DNA of 50,157 bases from Actinomycetota bacterium (GTDB lineage Bacteria; Actinomycetota; JAUVYG01), in contig JAUVYG010000004.1 of the NCBI GenBank assembly GCA_030603185.1, forward strand, positions 1-50,157, given 5' to 3'. Below, piece after piece: positions 3,305 through 30,022 of the stretch; the first letter of the stretch is position 1, and every line of letters starts with the position of its first letter. A program made the translations under genes and the position numbers. Below the pieces are notes generated by a model, which was given only the letters and a program-made list of their open reading frames with translations, did no database searches and was not told the DNA's origin.

Positions 3305-4525
3305 CTATAAGGCGCCCGGACTTGATTTTTCCTCGCGAGAGGCAGCCTTCACGAAGATGCTGTGCCATATCGGTAGACTGTCAGCAAGTCCGATGAACTG
3401 AAGATACTGAGAGTCCACATCGACATCGCCATGTGGATTTGGCCCAGCCTCAACGAGGGCGTTGGCAACATGAACGGCCGTCAACTCGTTGAACTCTTTT
3501 GTCCTGGTCAGTGCCGGCCAATGATGTCTGAGGACCGCCTCTACGACGCCCTCCGGAAGACCCCACAGTGCTAGCAGGTAGCCACCTACCTGAGCATGGT
3601 TGGAGCCAAGAATCTCAGACTCTGCCTGCACCATCACTACGCCTTCTTCGTCGGACATACGAGCCACCTCGGCGTACTTATCGCTCACCTCACTGGCAAG
3701 GACGAGTTTACCTACGTCATGAAGGAACCCAGCGAGAAACGCACGGTCAGCCAACTCTTTCCCGACGCCCTCGTGCTCTGCAATGGTTCTTGCCACATAC
3801 GCGACCTTGGCGCTGTGATCCATTAGATCTTCAATGTCGAGAGGGCTGTTGGGCGGAAGTTTCGGCTGATCAAAGATCCCACTGCTCAGGACCAGGCTCG
3901 TCATCGTGTTAATACCAAGTAGAGAGGTCGCATGGCCCGGATCCACTATCCGCTGGGTGAACCCGAAGAAGGCTGAGTTGGCCATCCTAAGCACCTTTGT
4001 GGTCATCGCGATGTCTTTCGAGATGATCTCGCCCACATGCTGCAAGGTTCCGGATGGCGACCTGAGTTCAGCCATAATCTCGGTGTAAAGCGCTGGTACG
4101 CTCGGTAGATTCTCGATTCGCCCAACAATCTCCATCAAAGGTCGAGACATCAGCTCTTCCTGCATTTCAGAGATCCTCTTGATCGACTGGACCAGCTCTT
4201 CGGGGTCACACGGCTTGGGAAGATACTGGTGCGCCGTCTTGTCTTGTTCGAAGACGCCGTCTTTTAGCAACTGGGCAGCGATGCCCAGACGTATCGCAGC
4301 GGGATGCTTTTCCCCGACCGAAGACAGAAAATCGGCGCCTTTGACCGCGCCGATATCGGAGTCGGCGATCACCACATCGAACTCAGAATCACTCTCGAGC
4401 ACGTCTGTGGCCGCCTCTACATTGTCCACGAATACCCATTCCCAGTCGTAGACGCGACCGGCTAGACTTTCAGCCAGTGAGTCGAGAACTTGAGTATCGT
4501 CGTCGACGAATAGAATTCGTTTCAT
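3305..4525 (-). CDS. Receiver-HDOD response regulator
   Basis: A 406-residue protein with a receiver domain (1-115) and a C-terminal HDOD domain (about 125-330). The receiver has the acidic pocket D8-D9-D10, phospho-acceptor D55 in VVIADSD, and K104-P105 in LPKP, so it looks competent for phosphorylation. The HDOD domain carries FLHDVGKLVLA and HAQVGGYLLALWGLP. No histidine kinase is adjacent, so the phosphodonor is unknown. It is divergent from the metallophosphoesterase at 4637, and the shared upstream region holds a 15-base direct repeat. With its two paralogues it forms a local family that probably arose by tandem duplication (inference). Confidence 0.9.
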   Translation of the reverse strand: MKRILFVDDDTQVLDSLAESLAGRVYDWEWVFVDNVEAATDVLESDSEFDVVIADSDIGAVKGADFLSSVGEKHPAAIRLGIAAQLLKDGVFEQDKTAHQYLPKPCDPEELVQSIKRISEMQEELMSRPLMEIVGRIENLPSVPALYTEIMAELRSPSGTLQHVGEIISKDIAMTTKVLRMANSAFFGFTQRIVDPGHATSLLGINTMTSLVLSSGIFDQPKLPPNSPLDIEDLMDHSAKVAYVARTIAEHEGVGKELADRAFLAGFLHDVGKLVLASEVSDKYAEVARMSDEEGVVMVQAESEILGSNHAQVGGYLLALWGLPEGVVEAVLRHHWPALTRTKEFNELTAVHVANALVEAGPNPHGDVDVDSQYLQFIGLADSLPIWHSIFVKAASREEKSSPGAL

Positions 4526-4541
4526 TTAGTCACAGTCCAAG

Positions 4542-4596
4542 TTATTGCCATTAGAGTGATATTCGACCCCTTACCTATGTTTTATTAGCATTAGGG
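4542..4596. promoter_or_regulatory. Pair of direct repeats in a divergent promoter region
   Basis: TTATTGCCATTAGAG at 4542-4556 and TTATTAGCATTAGGG at 4582-4596 agree at 12 of 15 bases and start exactly 40 bases apart, about four helical turns. They lie between the divergent REC-HDOD (4525) and metallophosphoesterase (4637) genes. Such phased repeats suit a regulator-binding site, but this is inferred from spacing and position only. Confidence 0.3.
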
Positions 4597-23643: not shown

Positions 23644-24123
23644 TTGAATGAAACTGAACTCCAGGTGCATGGCGTGAACTTGGACATGATGACCAACCAA
23701 CCGGTCGTAATTTTAAAGGACCTAGAGTCAAAAAAGTTCCTACCCATTTGGATAGGGCAGTTCGAGGCGACCTCAATACTCATGGAGATTCAGGGAGTCG
23801 AAGCGGCTCGACCGCTTACTCATGATCTTCTTCGCAACGTCATCGACGAGCTCGGCGCGGATGTGGTCAAGATTGTAATCGACGACATCGAAGAAGGCAC
23901 ATTCTTCGCTAAGATTCATCTTCGGATGCCTAACTCTACGAGGCCCGTCGATGCCAGACCAAGTGATGCCATCGCTCTAGCCGTACGAACAAGGTCCCCC
24001 ATTTTTGCCACAGATAAGGTTGTCGAAAAGGCCGCTATGGCGACTGAGTTCGGCGAAGAGGACGAGGTCGAGAAGTTTCGAGAGTTCCTGGATGGAATCG
24101 AGCCAGAGGATTTTCAGGAGTAG
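23644..24123 (+). CDS. Bifunctional nuclease family (DUF151) protein
   Basis: The 159-residue protein matches the DUF151 family along its length: LPIWIGQFEATSILMEIQG, the RPLTHDLL segment, FFAKIHL, and DARPSDAIALAVRT. Some members degrade both RNA and DNA, but the role in this organism is unknown. The start is TTG with AAGGAG nine bases upstream. The acidic C-terminal tail (about 135-159) is typical. It is a single-gene transcript converging on the SH3 gene. Confidence 0.9.
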   Translation: MNETELQVHGVNLDMMTNQPVVILKDLESKKFLPIWIGQFEATSILMEIQGVEAARPLTHDLLRNVIDELGADVVKIVIDDIEEGTFFAKIHLRMPNSTRPVDARPSDAIALAVRTRSPIFATDKVVEKAAMATEFGEEDEVEKFREFLDGIEPEDFQE

Positions 24124-24136
24124 GCTGAGCGCCTCT

Positions 24137-24601
24137 CTACAGATCCCCGCTTAGGACTTTCACAAAGCGCCCGTCAGCTGAGACGTAGCCCTGTATTCCA
24201 TTTGAGTCGACCACCTTGTACCAGCCGTCCTCTTTGGCGATCACGCCGAGCTTGCTACCTTTGACAGCAGAACCCAGAACTTTGGCGCTCGTATTAGGCG
24301 TGGCCCGAATATTCAATGATCCTGAGATCACAACCTCAATCTGACCTATGGTCTTGGGGCCCGGCGCTGCAGTAGTCGTGGTCGCCTTAGGTTCAGGTGT
24401 GCTTGCGCCTGCGGCTTCGACATCGCCCGTCGCCTCAGAGTCCGCGGTCACAGTGTCTGCGGATGAGGCCATGTCGGACTGTTCGCTCATGACCGCAGTC
24501 ACCTGTGTGAGCATATAGATCGCTAGTACTGCCAACGCCACCCAGGCAGCTATTCGAAAGTACTTACGATTGTTGTCGATGATGTCTTGTAGATGGTTCA
24601 T
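24137..24601 (-). CDS. Membrane-anchored bacterial SH3 protein
   Basis: A 154-residue protein with a short cytoplasmic N-terminus, one membrane span (about 16-38), a Thr/Ala/Glu-rich linker (about 40-85) and a C-terminal bacterial SH3 domain. The domain is recognised by SLNIRATPNTSAKVLGSAVKG and EDGWYKVVDSNGIQGYVSADGRFV. Such domains bind wall peptides outside the cell. It lies three bases downstream of the 40-residue TM gene and is probably in the tRNA-Met-rpmG transcript, where nusG would usually be. Confidence 0.8.
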   Translation of the reverse strand: MNHLQDIIDNNRKYFRIAAWVALAVLAIYMLTQVTAVMSEQSDMASSADTVTADSEATGDVEAAGASTPEPKATTTTAAPGPKTIGQIEVVISGSLNIRATPNTSAKVLGSAVKGSKLGVIAKEDGWYKVVDSNGIQGYVSADGRFVKVLSGDL

Positions 24602-24604
24602 AGA

Positions 24605-24727
24605 TTACGCCGTATACCAGAGGACAAAAACGTAAAAGATCAAAGTGACTGAGCCAGCTGCGAGCAGGCTTTTCCAAATGATGATCTCATCACGCTTCTC
24701 GGGGCTGATCTTTTTTGTATTAGCCAT
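24605..24727 (-). CDS. 40-residue single-TM protein in the secE position
   Basis: A short frame with ATG start encodes 40 residues. The charged N-terminal part (MANTKKISPEKRDE) is followed by one membrane span (about 19-38). It lies between rpmG and the SH3 gene with 26- and 3-base gaps. In most bacteria rpmG is followed by secE, itself a small single-span protein, but here the conserved SecE features (amphipathic helix with a Lys-x-x-x-W-P element) are not visible. It may be an orphan membrane protein, an extremely divergent SecE, or a partner of the SH3 protein. A clean frame, spacing and coding composition support it. Confidence 0.6.
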   Translation of the reverse strand: MANTKKISPEKRDEIIIWKSLLAAGSVTLIFYVFVLWYTA

Positions 24728-24753: not shown

Positions 24754-24903
24754 CTATCGAGTCTCTTTGTGGGAAGTGTGCTTCCCACACCATTGACAGT
24801 ACTTGTTGAGTTCGATCCTGTCAGGATTGTTTCGCTTATTCTTCTTGGTCGCATAATTGCGCCTCTTGCACTCTGTGCAAGCTAGTGTCACCAAATCACG
24901 CAC
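24754..24903 (-). CDS. rpmG: Ribosomal protein bL33
   Basis: The 49-residue product has the two CxxC zinc pairs of the C+ form of bL33 (CTEC and CQWC), with [20 protein letters not shown] between them. A GTG start at 24903 is supported by AAAGGAG six bases upstream; an ATG further up is followed by a stop within eight codons. It follows tRNA-Met, as in many bacteria where tRNA genes precede rpmG-secE-nusG. Confidence 0.95.
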
Positions 24904-24956
24904 TGGCTGCTCCTTTCATGGGCATACATAAGTTTTTATCACAAATCCGGGTTCGG

Positions 24957-25030
24957 TAGCGGTGGGAGGACTTGAACCTCCGACCTCACGGGTATGAACC
25001 GTGCGCTCTCACCATCTGAGCTACACCGCC
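24957..25030 (-). tRNA. tRNA-Met (CAT anticodon)
   Basis: A 74-base cloverleaf: acceptor GGCGGTG/CACCGCT with one G-U pair, D arm, anticodon stem CACGG/CCGTG around TTCATAC (CAT), T stem GGAGG/CCTCC around TTCAAGT. The paired first base and normal stems suggest elongator tRNA-Met. A lysidine-modified tRNA-Ile2 also has CAT in DNA and cannot be fully excluded. Confidence 0.93.
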
Positions 25031-25116: not shown

Positions 25117-25719
25117 CTAGGAAGCTTTGAGCACAACGCCCACTTTTCGCTTGATGCGCTGAAGGGCGTTGTCCACCGCCTTGGGGTTCTTCCCCATGGC
25201 CTCGGCGATCTCGGTATAAGTCATCCCGTCAAGCGACATAGACAGTACTTGGGTCTCGAAGTCTGATGCGCATTCCCTAACCATCTTTTTGACCTGGGTC
25301 CAGCTCTCTTGAGTGAGAACCATGGAAACCGGATCACTGGACTGTCCGGCTTGAATTCGATGAAATGCGCCTCCCTGTTCATCGTCAGAGCCGGGATCAG
25401 AATCGGTTGGAACGTACTCATTGAGAGGAGAGTGCTTTAGGCGATTGGCTGCCCTAACCGCAGTTTGTATCTGCCTCTCAGCGCATAGGCTGGCAAATGT
25501 TGAGAATGAGCTACCGGCGTCCTCTGAGTAGTCCCTGATAGCTTTGTAGAGGCCGATAAGCCCCTCTTGTATCAAATCGTCTCGATCTGCCCCCGGAAGG
25601 AAATACTTAGCAGCGATCGCACGAATAATCGAACGGTGGGCATCGATTAGAATCCGTAAAGACTCTTCACATCCTGATCGAGCAGAACCGATTCTAAGCC
25701 TGATAGCAGCTTCATTCAT
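25117..25719 (-). CDS. sigH: SigH-like sigma-70 family factor
   Basis: The 200-residue factor has region 2 (LIQEGLIGLYKAIRDYSEDAG followed by FSTFASLCAERQIQTAVRAA) and region 4 (MSLDGMTYTEIAEAMGKNPKAVDNALQRIKRKV), with NRLKHSPLNEYVPTD at the region 2/3 junction, typical of the SigH/Spo0H group. Its place, yacP-sigH-rpmG, matches Firmicutes. No anti-sigma gene is adjacent. In an organism that probably does not sporulate, a stress or competence role is possible but unproven. A Shine-Dalgarno is not obvious. Confidence 0.92.
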   Translation of the reverse strand: MNEAAIRLRIGSARSGCEESLRILIDAHRSIIRAIAAKYFLPGADRDDLIQEGLIGLYKAIRDYSEDAGSSFSTFASLCAERQIQTAVRAANRLKHSPLNEYVPTDSDPGSDDEQGGAFHRIQAGQSSDPVSMVLTQESWTQVKKMVRECASDFETQVLSMSLDGMTYTEIAEAMGKNPKAVDNALQRIKRKVGVVLKAS

Positions 25720-25759
25720 GAAGCAATCCTACCACTTATGGGCCTTTGGATAAACCTTA

Positions 25760-26299
25760 CTATGATTCCGGACGAGTCATCTTCTTCAGCTTCCGAGCCA
25801 CATCAGGATCAACGCTCTCGGAAAGCCTATAGCTCTTCTGTTGTTCCTGGTCTGATCTGGTCGCCTTCGGGCCGTCTTCATCTTCGTCGCCACGTTCGAT
25901 AGCCTCAATAATCTCGCGCGGCGCCATCCTCAGGACCTTACCCCCGAAAGTCATGCGCTGCTGCAGATAGTCCGCTGTCACGACGTAGACTCTTTCGTAT
26001 ATCTCGACGTCCCGGGTCAGCCGTTCGATCACCTGGTCTGCTCCGTGGGGCTTTTCACTGAACATCACCTGCACTCCGGGTGTCTCGATGCCGGGAGAAG
26101 TAATCTCTCTGCGCCCGTCGAACACGATCTTTACCTCGGCGTCCTCACGAACAGCGATTTCGAACATCTTATCGACTAGGCGATCCCTAAGGGTTTCTAG
26201 GCTCTCACCTTCGCCTGATATCGATCTTGAACTCATCGATCCTGGGGACATCACCGCTATCACGTTGTAGCCATCGACTACATATAGCGTCTTACCCAC
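25760..26299 (-). CDS. yacP: YacP-like NYN-domain RNase
   Basis: The GTG at 26299 gives a 179-residue protein that begins VGKTLYVVDGYNVI, as expected for the PIN-like NYN fold, with catalytic acidic residues in VDGYN, KIVFDGRRE and VVTADYLQQ. A longer frame from 26353 would add 18 unrelated residues read from within rlmB. B. subtilis YacP/Rae1 cleaves mRNA on the ribosome, so an RNase role is expected. It overlaps the end of rlmB by 8 bases. Confidence 0.87.
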   Translation of the reverse strand: MGKTLYVVDGYNVIAVMSPGSMSSRSISGEGESLETLRDRLVDKMFEIAVREDAEVKIVFDGRREITSPGIETPGVQVMFSEKPHGADQVIERLTRDVEIYERVYVVTADYLQQRMTFGGKVLRMAPREIIEAIERGDEDEDGPKATRSDQEQQKSYRLSESVDPDVARKLKKMTRPES

Positions 26300-27023
26300 T
26301 GGAAGCTCTGCGTCGAGCCTCGTAGAACAACAGTGCCGCAGATACCGAGACATTCAGGGACTCGACTTCGCCATGAATTGGAATTGAGACCTGCTGATCG
26401 CATGCGCTCTTGAGCAACGGCCTCACTCCCTTCCCCTCGGAGCCGAGAACGATGACTGTGGGGCCCGTTAGGTCCGCTTCCCAAATACTCACCTCAGCTT
26501 CAGCGTCAGTTCCCAGAACCCAATATCCCTCTTGCTGTAGACGCCTAACTGCGTCAACACTATTTCCGACCATCGCGATCGGCATGCTGGCATCAGCGCC
26601 CGCAGAAGCCTTGGTGGCGGCCTCATTCACCTGCGCAGAGCGTCTTTCAGGAATAACAATGCCCCTGATCCCAGAGGCCTCTGCTGACCGAATGACTGCA
26701 CCAAGGTTCCGAGGGTCTGTCACCCCGTCCAGTACAGCTATGACGTCGATCCGGTCGTCGCCTAATTCTGCGTGCAAGAGATCATCTATGGATAAGTACT
26801 GATACGGAGCAACCTTTGCGATCACTCCTTGGTGCAGAACGCCGTTGGAAGCCCGATCCAGTTCAGAAACATCCACTCGCCGCACCCGAACCCCAGCGGC
26901 TCTGGCGGCGCCTTCAATATCCTTTAGGGCCCCTTTTTTCCCGGGACCGCTCGCGACCAGGACCTCTTGTACGTTGTCAGACGAGCGCAGGGCGACAATA
27001 ACAGGCTGGCGCCCTACTATCAT
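26292..27023 (-). CDS. rlmB: 23S rRNA (guanosine-2'-O-)-methyltransferase RlmB type
   Basis: The 243-residue SPOUT methyltransferase has the substrate-binding N-terminal part (VGRQPVIVALRSS ... VLHQGVIA) and the knotted SAM-binding part (LDGVTDPRNLGAVIRSAEASG, VLGSEGKGVR, IPIHGEVESLNVSVSAAL). I chose the ATG at 27023, which gives the normal family length; a TTG at 27092 would overlap cysS by 56 bases. The mini-RNase III gene that often sits between cysS and rlmB is absent. Confidence 0.93.
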   Translation of the reverse strand: MIVGRQPVIVALRSSDNVQEVLVASGPGKKGALKDIEGAARAAGVRVRRVDVSELDRASNGVLHQGVIAKVAPYQYLSIDDLLHAELGDDRIDVIAVLDGVTDPRNLGAVIRSAEASGIRGIVIPERRSAQVNEAATKASAGADASMPIAMVGNSVDAVRRLQQEGYWVLGTDAEAEVSIWEADLTGPTVIVLGSEGKGVRPLLKSACDQQVSIPIHGEVESLNVSVSAALLFYEARRRASSG

Positions 27024-27036
27024 CCGCGGTGAGTCG

Positions 27037-28584
27037 TCAGTTCTTTTCAAGAGGTTTCCACATGGTTCCGAACGAGGTGTCTTCGATTCCAATGCCGGCG
27101 TTGGCTAGCCCATCCCGGATCACATCGGCCTTTGCCCAGTCCTTGTCAGCCCTGGCGGCAGCCCGTATCTCAAAGATCCGGTTCAAATGCTGGGCCGTTT
27201 CATCGGTTTCGAGAACGGTCTCTCCGAGTTCCGTCATCAGCCCATGCACTGCCTGGCTGACCGTTTCATCCAAGCTGCCATCAGCAGATGGAATATCTAT
27301 GCCGATCACACCCAATAGCCGGCGTAGGGTTCCTGCAACAAGTCCTAGATTGGAGCTCAGTGCCGGTCTAATACTGCCAAGAGATTCACCCTTCAGATAA
27401 CGGTTGGAGTCATTCACATATTCAAAGAGCACTGCCAGCGCCTCCGCGGTGTTGAAATCATCATCCATGGCTTTGCGGAAATTGGCCTCGACCACACTGG
27501 TCGTTGATTCGAACTCGGGGTCCTTATCATCGCCTCCACTAGGTGCACCGCTGTCTACCACAAGATCAGTGTCCAATACCTGGATCTGGTCTATCAAGAA
27601 CAGAAGATCCTCAAACCGCCTGAGCGCCTCTCGCGCCTCCGCCAACCCTTTGTCAGAGAACTCGAGTGGTTGTCTGTAGTGGGTTCTACTCATGAACAGT
27701 CTGAGAACGCTTGTCGTCCAGTCGTCATACAGATCCCGGAGCAGAGTGAAGTTGCCGGTAGACTTAGACATCTTCTCTTGGTTCAACTGAAGAAGACCGG
27801 CATGTAGCCACTGCCTTGCGAATTGCCCCACGCCTTGGGACGCCTCTGACTGGGCGATCTCGTTCTCGTGATGAGGGAATATCAGGTCTTGAGCTCCCCC
27901 GTGGATATCGAAGTCTTTACCAAGAAGATCAAGCGACATGACCGAGCACTCGATGTGCCATCCCGGTCGCCCGGGGCCCCAGGGGCTATCCCAGAACGGC
28001 TCTCCGGGCTTTGAGGACTTCCATAGCGCAAAGTCCATTGGGTTGCCCTTGCGCTTGTCCACCTCCACCCTCTCGCCGGCTCTCATTTCTTCGAGGTTGC
28101 GCCTACTGAGCCTCCCGTAGCTCTCAAAACTCTCTACCGAGTAATACACATCCCCATCGACCGCATACGCGTTGCCGTTGGTGATCAGCTCCTCGATCAT
28201 GGATACCATCTGAGGGATGAACTCTGTCGCCTTGGGGGCGTGAGTCGGGGGTGCTACGCCGAGAGAGTCCATATCCTGCCTGAATGCCTTTGTGTAGCGC
28301 TCTGCGACTTCCTGAGGGTCAACACCCTCTTCCTTAGCCTTGTTGATGATCTTGTCGTCTACGTCGGTGATATTCTGCACGAAGTCTACGGTAAAACCTC
28401 GGTACTCGAGATAGCGACGGATCATGTCGAATGACATGAAGGTCCGCGCGTTACCGATATGAATGTAGTTGTATACAGTCGGACCACAGATATACAGACT
28501 CACCCGACCGGTTTCGCGGGTGGTCATCGGCCCTTTTTTCCGGGTCAGAGTGTCGTATATCACTATGTCGGTCGACTCAGCCAT
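27037..28584 (-). CDS. cysS: Cysteinyl-tRNA synthetase
   Basis: The 515-residue class I synthetase has the zinc ligand Cys in YICGPTVYNYIHIGN, the HIGH motif (HIGNARTF), EIAQSEASQG and KMSKSTGN. An insertion of about 25 residues (SGAPSGGDDKDPEF) lies between the catalytic and anticodon parts. Its start overlaps the end of gltX by eight bases. The neighbouring cysE of Firmicutes clusters is missing. Confidence 0.97.
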   Translation of the reverse strand: MAESTDIVIYDTLTRKKGPMTTRETGRVSLYICGPTVYNYIHIGNARTFMSFDMIRRYLEYRGFTVDFVQNITDVDDKIINKAKEEGVDPQEVAERYTKAFRQDMDSLGVAPPTHAPKATEFIPQMVSMIEELITNGNAYAVDGDVYYSVESFESYGRLSRRNLEEMRAGERVEVDKRKGNPMDFALWKSSKPGEPFWDSPWGPGRPGWHIECSVMSLDLLGKDFDIHGGAQDLIFPHHENEIAQSEASQGVGQFARQWLHAGLLQLNQEKMSKSTGNFTLLRDLYDDWTTSVLRLFMSRTHYRQPLEFSDKGLAEAREALRRFEDLLFLIDQIQVLDTDLVVDSGAPSGGDDKDPEFESTTSVVEANFRKAMDDDFNTAEALAVLFEYVNDSNRYLKGESLGSIRPALSSNLGLVAGTLRRLLGVIGIDIPSADGSLDETVSQAVHGLMTELGETVLETDETAQHLNRIFEIRAAARADKDWAKADVIRDGLANAGIGIEDTSFGTMWKPLEKN

Positions 28585-30022
28585 TGCCTATCCTCTCTGG
28601 GGCAGCATCTAGGGCTCCACTCAAACGTTCCATCGCACCATCTCTACCGAGAATAAGTAAGCAGTACCTTAGTTCAGGTCCTGATTTCTTAGCTGTCAGA
28701 GCAAATCTTATCGGTAGCATGACCTTTCCAGGCCCGACACCCTGATCCTTGAACCGCCTCTTTGTCGCATCAATCAACTCTTGCGCACCGGTCTCGCTCA
28801 ATTCAACGCTTTCCTGAATGCTATCCAAGAAATCTGAAAGAACATTCCGGGTCAAAGGGTCAGAGAACCGGGCAGCCACATCATCAGAATAGCGCAGAGA
28901 ACCGCTATAGAGCCTAGCTTGTTCCACCAGCTCGCCGACGTCGTAAAGCTCTCCCTGAAAAACGTTAATGAGCTGCTGCCACCAGTCATCGGAGCGCTCG
29001 ACGATAATCCCCAGCTCCAAAGCCTGATTCCTAGCGTCCTTGGTCAGAACAGCCGAGCTCATCTGCCGAAAGTGTTCACCTGCGATCCACTTGAGCTTGG
29101 CTGGGTCCCATCTACCAGGGGAGGTAGACAGGCGCTTCCATTCAAAAGCGTCACACAGATCTTTCGGCTTAAAAACCTCGGCCTGGGTCGCTGAGGACCA
29201 ACCGAGCAGAGCCACGTAGTTGAGAACTGCCTCTGCGGAGTAACCCTCATCACGAAACTCGCCGAGCGTTCTCGCCCCGTCTCTCTTGCTGAGCTTCGAA
29301 CCGTCCGCCCCGACCACTAGGCCCACATGCAAGTATTCGGGCGCCGAAATATTAAGAGCATCCGCCACAACCTGCTGGCGGGCGGTGTTACTCAAATGAT
29401 CCTCTCCGCGCAGCACATGAGTGATACCCATTTCGTGGTCGTCAACGACCACGGCAAAGTTGTATGACGCAACGCCGTTAGACCTCATAATCACGAAATC
29501 ATCGAATGCTGACTCAGGGAACTGCATTTCCCCCCTGAGGATATCTCGGAATGAGGTGCCCCCTTTTGGAACATTGATCCGATACGAGGGATCCGATTCC
29601 CCGGCCTTTTGCTCGGTCTCGGCAGCGGATAGGTTGCGGCACTTTCCTGAGTACCTGGGGGGCCTCCCCTTGGCCGTTGCCTTCTCGCGTTCTGCGCGTA
29701 GCTCGTCATCGGTGCAGAAACAAGGATATGCGCTACCATCTTTCAACAAGGTCTCGAGGTAGCCTGCATGGATTTCTACTCTTTGGCTCTGAAATACGGG
29801 GGGCTCATCCGGCACGATCCCCATCCAGTCCAGATCCGCCAGAATCGACTCGACGTACTTGACCTCAGAGCGTTTAGCGTCAGTGTCCTCGAACCTAAGC
29901 AAGAACTGCCCTTCGTAGTGCCTGGCGTAAAGCCAGTTCAAGACAGCGATCCGGGCTGTGCCGAGATGAAGATCTCCGGTTGGACTGGGAGCGAACCTTA
30001 CTTTGACTTCTTTAGTGGGCAT
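28577..30022 (-). CDS. gltX: Glutamyl-tRNA synthetase
   Basis: A full-length 481-residue class I synthetase with the HIGH-type motif in FAPSPTGDLHLGTAR, zinc-loop-like CFCTDDELRAERE and KLSKRDGARTLGEF as the KMSKS-type motif. Whether it also charges tRNA-Gln (for GatCAB amidation) cannot be told from the sequence alone. It follows ispF without a gap (ispF stop at 30023). Confidence 0.97.
   Translation of the reverse strand: MPTKEVKVRFAPSPTGDLHLGTARIAVLNWLYARHYEGQFLLRFEDTDAKRSEVKYVESILADLDWMGIVPDEPPVFQSQRVEIHAGYLETLLKDGSAYPCFCTDDELRAEREKATAKGRPPRYSGKCRNLSAAETEQKAGESDPSYRINVPKGGTSFRDILRGEMQFPESAFDDFVIMRSNGVASYNFAVVVDDHEMGITHVLRGEDHLSNTARQQVVADALNISAPEYLHVGLVVGADGSKLSKRDGARTLGEFRDEGYSAEAVLNYVALLGWSSATQAEVFKPKDLCDAFEWKRLSTSPGRWDPAKLKWIAGEHFRQMSSAVLTKDARNQALELGIIVERSDDWWQQLINVFQGELYDVGELVEQARLYSGSLRYSDDVAARFSDPLTRNVLSDFLDSIQESVELSETGAQELIDATKRRFKDQGVGPGKVMLPIRFALTAKKSGPELRYCLLILGRDGAMERLSGALDAAPERIGNG

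Follow-up and report, generated by a model that had tools for sequence, protein, structure and literature searches.

The window (the whole stretch of 50,157 nucleotides analysed here) carries a small open reading frame that encodes a 40-residue protein with a single predicted membrane span, placed between the ribosomal protein gene rpmG and a gene for an SH3-domain protein (Table 1). The spacing is tight, with 26 nucleotides between rpmG and the small frame and 3 between the small frame and the SH3_3 gene, all on the minus strand, where the full order is gltX, cysS, the RlmB-type methyltransferase gene, the YacP-type gene, the SigH-like gene, tRNA-Met, rpmG, small frame and SH3_3. Upstream of the small frame's ATG there is a purine-rich tract (AGAGGGCGG) that ends 6 nucleotides short of the start codon. 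A terminator scan, performing at chance level, found no terminator-like site on the minus strand from rpmG to the end of the SH3 gene (the promoter and terminator scans returned 2 sites each, where 1.4 are expected). Because the row is tight and has no such site within it, rpmG, the small gene and the SH3-protein gene probably share one transcript. A preliminary description, made from the letters alone, had reported a short single-span protein lacking the W-P signature of SecE, followed by an SH3 membrane protein, and both observations hold: the small protein has one hydrophobic stretch and a one-helix model, and the SH3 protein has a significant domain match and is itself hydrophobic in an N-terminal stretch.

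Table 1. Features around the small frame, in window coordinates.
Feature	Coordinates	Strand	Basis or remark
Bifunctional-nuclease-domain protein	23644..24123	+	Convergent with the SH3 gene; row boundary
SH3_3-domain protein, 154 aa, hydrophobic N-terminal stretch	24137..24601	-	SH3_3 match, E 1.8e-13
Small frame, 40-aa single-span membrane protein	24605..24727 (including stop codon)	-	ATG start; homologues; modelled helix 9-39
rpmG (ribosomal protein L33), GTG start	24754..24903	-	PF00471, E 1.3e-24
tRNA-Met (cat), upstream of rpmG	24955..25030	-	
SigH-like sigma factor	25117..25719	-	Top NCBIfam match under its curated cut-off
YacP-like NYN domain protein	25760..26353	-	
SpoU/RlmB-type rRNA methyltransferase	26292..27092	-	
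cysS	27037..28584	-	
gltX	28577..30022	-	

The position behind rpmG was said in the same description to belong normally to secE, which is borne out in related genomes. Matches to rpmG were found in 58 of the 60 genomes searched, and among the best-scoring 30 loci, which were read and include our own, 22 of the 29 others have the order rpmG, tRNA-Trp, secE and 7 do not. In the source genome (1.81 Mb in 147 contigs, 95% complete) secE does not adjoin rpmG, as the description had also recognised, and lies together with nusG on another contig, C128, in the order tRNA-Trp, secE, nusG (PF02357, E 1.9e-31) and the ribosomal protein L11 gene rplK. The tRNA-Trp thus stayed with secE-nusG-rplK, which puts the break between rpmG and tRNA-Trp. 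An artefact of contig edges can be discarded as the cause of the separation, as both genes are well inside their contigs of 50.2 kb, rpmG at 24.8 kb and secE at 41.9 kb. A rearrangement in the source genome would have split rpmG from tRNA-Trp-secE-nusG, with the small gene and the SH3-protein gene now standing behind rpmG. The order gltX-cysS-rlmB-yacP-sigH-rpmG (25117-30022, minus strand) is one that we take to be similar to that of Bacillus, here with secE-nusG-rplK on a different contig, and the position of rpmG with its usual secE neighbour missing is mildly odd.

The gene on C128 encodes a genuine SecE of 125 residues with an ordinary V-T-W-P motif, and it is the sole SecE match in the source genome (PF00584, E 3.2e-19 to 4e-19). 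It is also the gene that has nusG behind it, whereas the small frame comes after rpmG without nusG following. The W-P motif before the span, invariant among 11 aligned SecE sequences, is absent from the small frame, which reads I-I-I-W-K-S at that place, and its relatives have D-P-[IVL]-[IVL]-W. None of 15 members of the small family matches PF00584 at E values up to 10, so that a profile search gives no sign of a SecE fold, and comparing the small-family profile with a profile of the 11 SecE sequences from the same genomes gives a probability of 0.5 percent (E 0.12, 6 columns). SecE is present in all 17 genomes that carry the small gene, and in the 16 other than our own the L33 and SecE profiles find nothing around it (2.5-14 kb searched in each, with the positive control found). 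Since rpmG and secE are absent near the small gene in these 16 carriers, it did not originate as a replacement for SecE, and since all carriers keep SecE it is not a functional stand-in. The proposal that a new small protein took the place of secE is therefore right as to position only, and we regard it as practically certain that the small protein is not SecE.

The length of the frame is by itself no proof of a gene, since 101 frames of at least 30 residues overlap a 10 kb stretch here. Homology is more telling. A single-sequence search of 60 genomes finds matches in 4 others (E 9.5e-8 to 8.8e-7), with 59-62% identity over 29 residues, and a profile built without the window sequence scores the window protein at 39.4 bits (E 3.6e-11). 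For comparison, the best score was 12.4 bits among 19,444 scored full shuffles and 18.4 bits among 19,957 scored segment-wise shuffles (39,401 scored in all). The small frame also ranks first of the 1,453 open frames in the window and 12 kb of contig C128, the next scoring 6.6 bits. Judged by these alignments, the window protein is homologous over the membrane span to a family found in the class that holds Candidatus Aquicultor. In one taxonomic family of that class (11 sequences, hereafter the Aquicultor family), the mean pN is 0.135 and the mean pS 0.709, giving a pN/pS of 0.19 (as uncorrected proportions at saturated sites), and pN reaches or exceeds pS in none of 55 pairs. The variable columns at codon positions 1, 2 and 3 number 23, 8 and 38 of 41. 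With pN far below pS and variability distributed in this way across codon positions, purifying selection acts on the coding frame in the Aquicultor family. The small frame almost certainly encodes a real, conserved protein.

Two profile searches covered 396 genomes of the phylum, which apart from our own are related to the genome of the window at phylum level at the closest, and returned 20 and 18 matches at E 0.01. Three weak ones (G097, G305 and G314; E 0.0019-0.0071) lie in larger unrelated frames or spans and were dropped, and none of them is found at E 0.01 once a larger alignment is used; this leaves 17 carriers among the 396 genomes, our own included. A further match in G232 (C23, near 4482-4562; E 0.0015) holds four internal stop codons, with E 0.00032 over a 27-residue frame; it was left uncounted and could be a decayed copy of the small gene. 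That the frame would be conserved in relatives was a point on which its reality had been made to hang, and homologues are indeed present in the class of Candidatus Aquicultor (presumably NCBI class Candidatus Aquicultoria), where 16 of 36 genomes have one. By taxonomic family within this class the gene is present in 11 of 11 genomes, in 1 of 3, in 1 of 2 (two families), in 1 of 1 (two families) and in no genome of seven others. A scan of 84,980 species returned 8 loci, apparently carriers already known, and missed other carriers, so that absence elsewhere is not to be read from it.

Members of the small family have 39-44 residues and one span, in which W18, S20, L21, A24, F31 and F34 (numbered as in the window protein) are invariant in all 15 aligned sequences, that of the window included. 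Where the rest of the family has Asp-Pro before the span, the window protein has E14-I15, and its N-terminal part is unlike the amphipathic N-terminal segment of the others; for these reasons it is a divergent member. Searches of known families are almost empty. The window protein has no Pfam or NCBIfam match at E values up to 10, and scans of all 15 members against both libraries give nothing significant (best E 0.01, to DUF5654 for one member, and 0.057). Among PHROGs there is nothing beyond one match at E 0.15, among solved structures in the PDB only one weak match to the span (E 0.28), among viral contigs 67 pattern stretches but no relative, and among plasmids no match. The portion of the open-access literature consulted on Aquicultor (including PMC10746217), on the rpmG-secE-nusG order and on small proteins contains no description of the family. 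It is thus missing from Pfam and NCBIfam, and common to the source lineage and part of the Aquicultor class.

The surroundings of the small gene in relatives differ from those in the window. Throughout the Aquicultor family (11 of 11 genomes) the small gene has a divergent J-domain gene on its 5′ side, on the opposite strand, and a thioredoxin-reductase-like gene lies on its 3′ side, again on the opposite strand, in all 10 genomes where this side can be read (one contig ends). Four further families have a DUF498 (MTH938-type) gene on the 5′ side and opposite strand, and the fifth (G179) has different neighbours, with a same-strand gene 6 nucleotides downstream. Most carriers transcribe the small gene away from its neighbours. 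In the genus of the carrier G222 only 1 of 3 genomes has the gene; the other two, G071 and G265, keep the DUF498-QueD neighbourhood with the site empty, which implies gain or loss of the small gene at that site, and such patchy presence within one genus implies that it is not essential everywhere. Taken together, these surroundings point to a gene that works alone, with its partner encoded elsewhere, and argue against an origin as a replacement at the secE position.

Several properties of the protein bear on how it might work. The Kyte-Doolittle maximum over 19 residues is 1.86, indicating a hydrophobic stretch, the N-terminal tail has a net charge of +2, and a single-sequence AlphaFold model consists of one helix (residues 9-39, mean pLDDT 83.6). 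With its positive N-terminal tail staying in the cytoplasm, the helix would cross the inner membrane once. Residues that are invariant or nearly so (S20, L21, A24, T28, F31, Y32, F34 and V35) are confined to an arc of about 160 degrees around the helix, with the variable ones elsewhere; at 100 degrees per residue the moment of variability reaches 0.369, where permutations average 0.153 (p 0.007; 22 positions and about 4.8 effective sequences). W18 is invariant, yet lies off the conserved face. Small residues spaced four apart serve tight helix packing, and here S20, A24 and T28 form such a series, beside F31, Y32, F34 and V35. Because one face is conserved and the other varies, another membrane protein most likely lies packed against the helix, and the conserved face would be the surface of contact.

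On this view the small protein would serve a larger membrane complex as an accessory or regulatory subunit, the remaining genes of the complex being located at other places in the genome. CydX, KdpF and AcrZ are small accessory subunits that span the membrane once within such complexes, and the protein resembles them in size, in its single span and in a conserved helix face suggestive of packing on a larger partner. It differs from them in having no sequence relation in Pfam, NCBIfam or PDB searches and no complex genes adjoining it. We put the odds of such an accessory role, with packing against a partner, at about even. The explanation as a whole, in which a genuine one-span family distinct from SecE provides an accessory subunit and has been moved behind rpmG by rearrangement, is the one we lean towards, by a little.

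Several other explanations have been weighed against it. The protein might form homo-oligomers or act on the membrane directly, as a small pore, a stress peptide or a type I toxin-like peptide; the face of small residues could serve self-association, and transcription away from the neighbours in most carriers would suit a self-contained product. However, the PHROG, viral and plasmid searches give no support to a toxin or pore, and conservation throughout the Aquicultor family beside the same J-domain gene better fits a housekeeping accessory, so that we consider this explanation unlikely, if the best of the alternatives. Less likely again is that it partners the SH3-domain protein, for example as a membrane anchor or regulator. 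The two genes are on the same strand, closely spaced and free of a terminator-like site between them, but the SH3 neighbour is missing in the other carriers read, and the SH3 protein has its own hydrophobic N-terminal stretch. That the frame is no gene at all is very improbable, frames of its length being common by chance in the window but its homology standing far above the shuffles and its relatives being under purifying selection, which refutes a chance origin barring contamination or assembly error. A reduced or paralogous SecE working in the translocon, the second possibility raised in the preliminary description, is least credible of all and can be dismissed: the protein sits where secE stands at most of the rpmG loci read and shares with SecE (PF00584) its shortness and a charged cytoplasmic tail followed by one span, but it lacks the W-P motif and any profile or profile-profile relation, its genome and every other carrier have an ordinary SecE, and in the 16 other carriers it has neither rpmG nor secE within the 2.5-14 kb read.

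As to what the protein does for its hosts, one could go further than the accessory subunit favoured above, and picture a subunit within a conserved membrane machinery of the deep-branching Actinomycetota, perhaps an additional Sec or insertase subunit, belonging to a previously undescribed family that is a lone gene in most of the sampled families having it, and whose place behind rpmG in the source genome would keep its expression linked to ribosome production. This is a long shot. The small protein represents an unnamed family of modest interest, and a profile for it, missing from current libraries, is now at hand. Established knowledge of SecE is left standing by the result. A gap in the textbook order rpmG-secE-nusG can house a real and unrelated small protein, and naming this one by its position alone would have misled.
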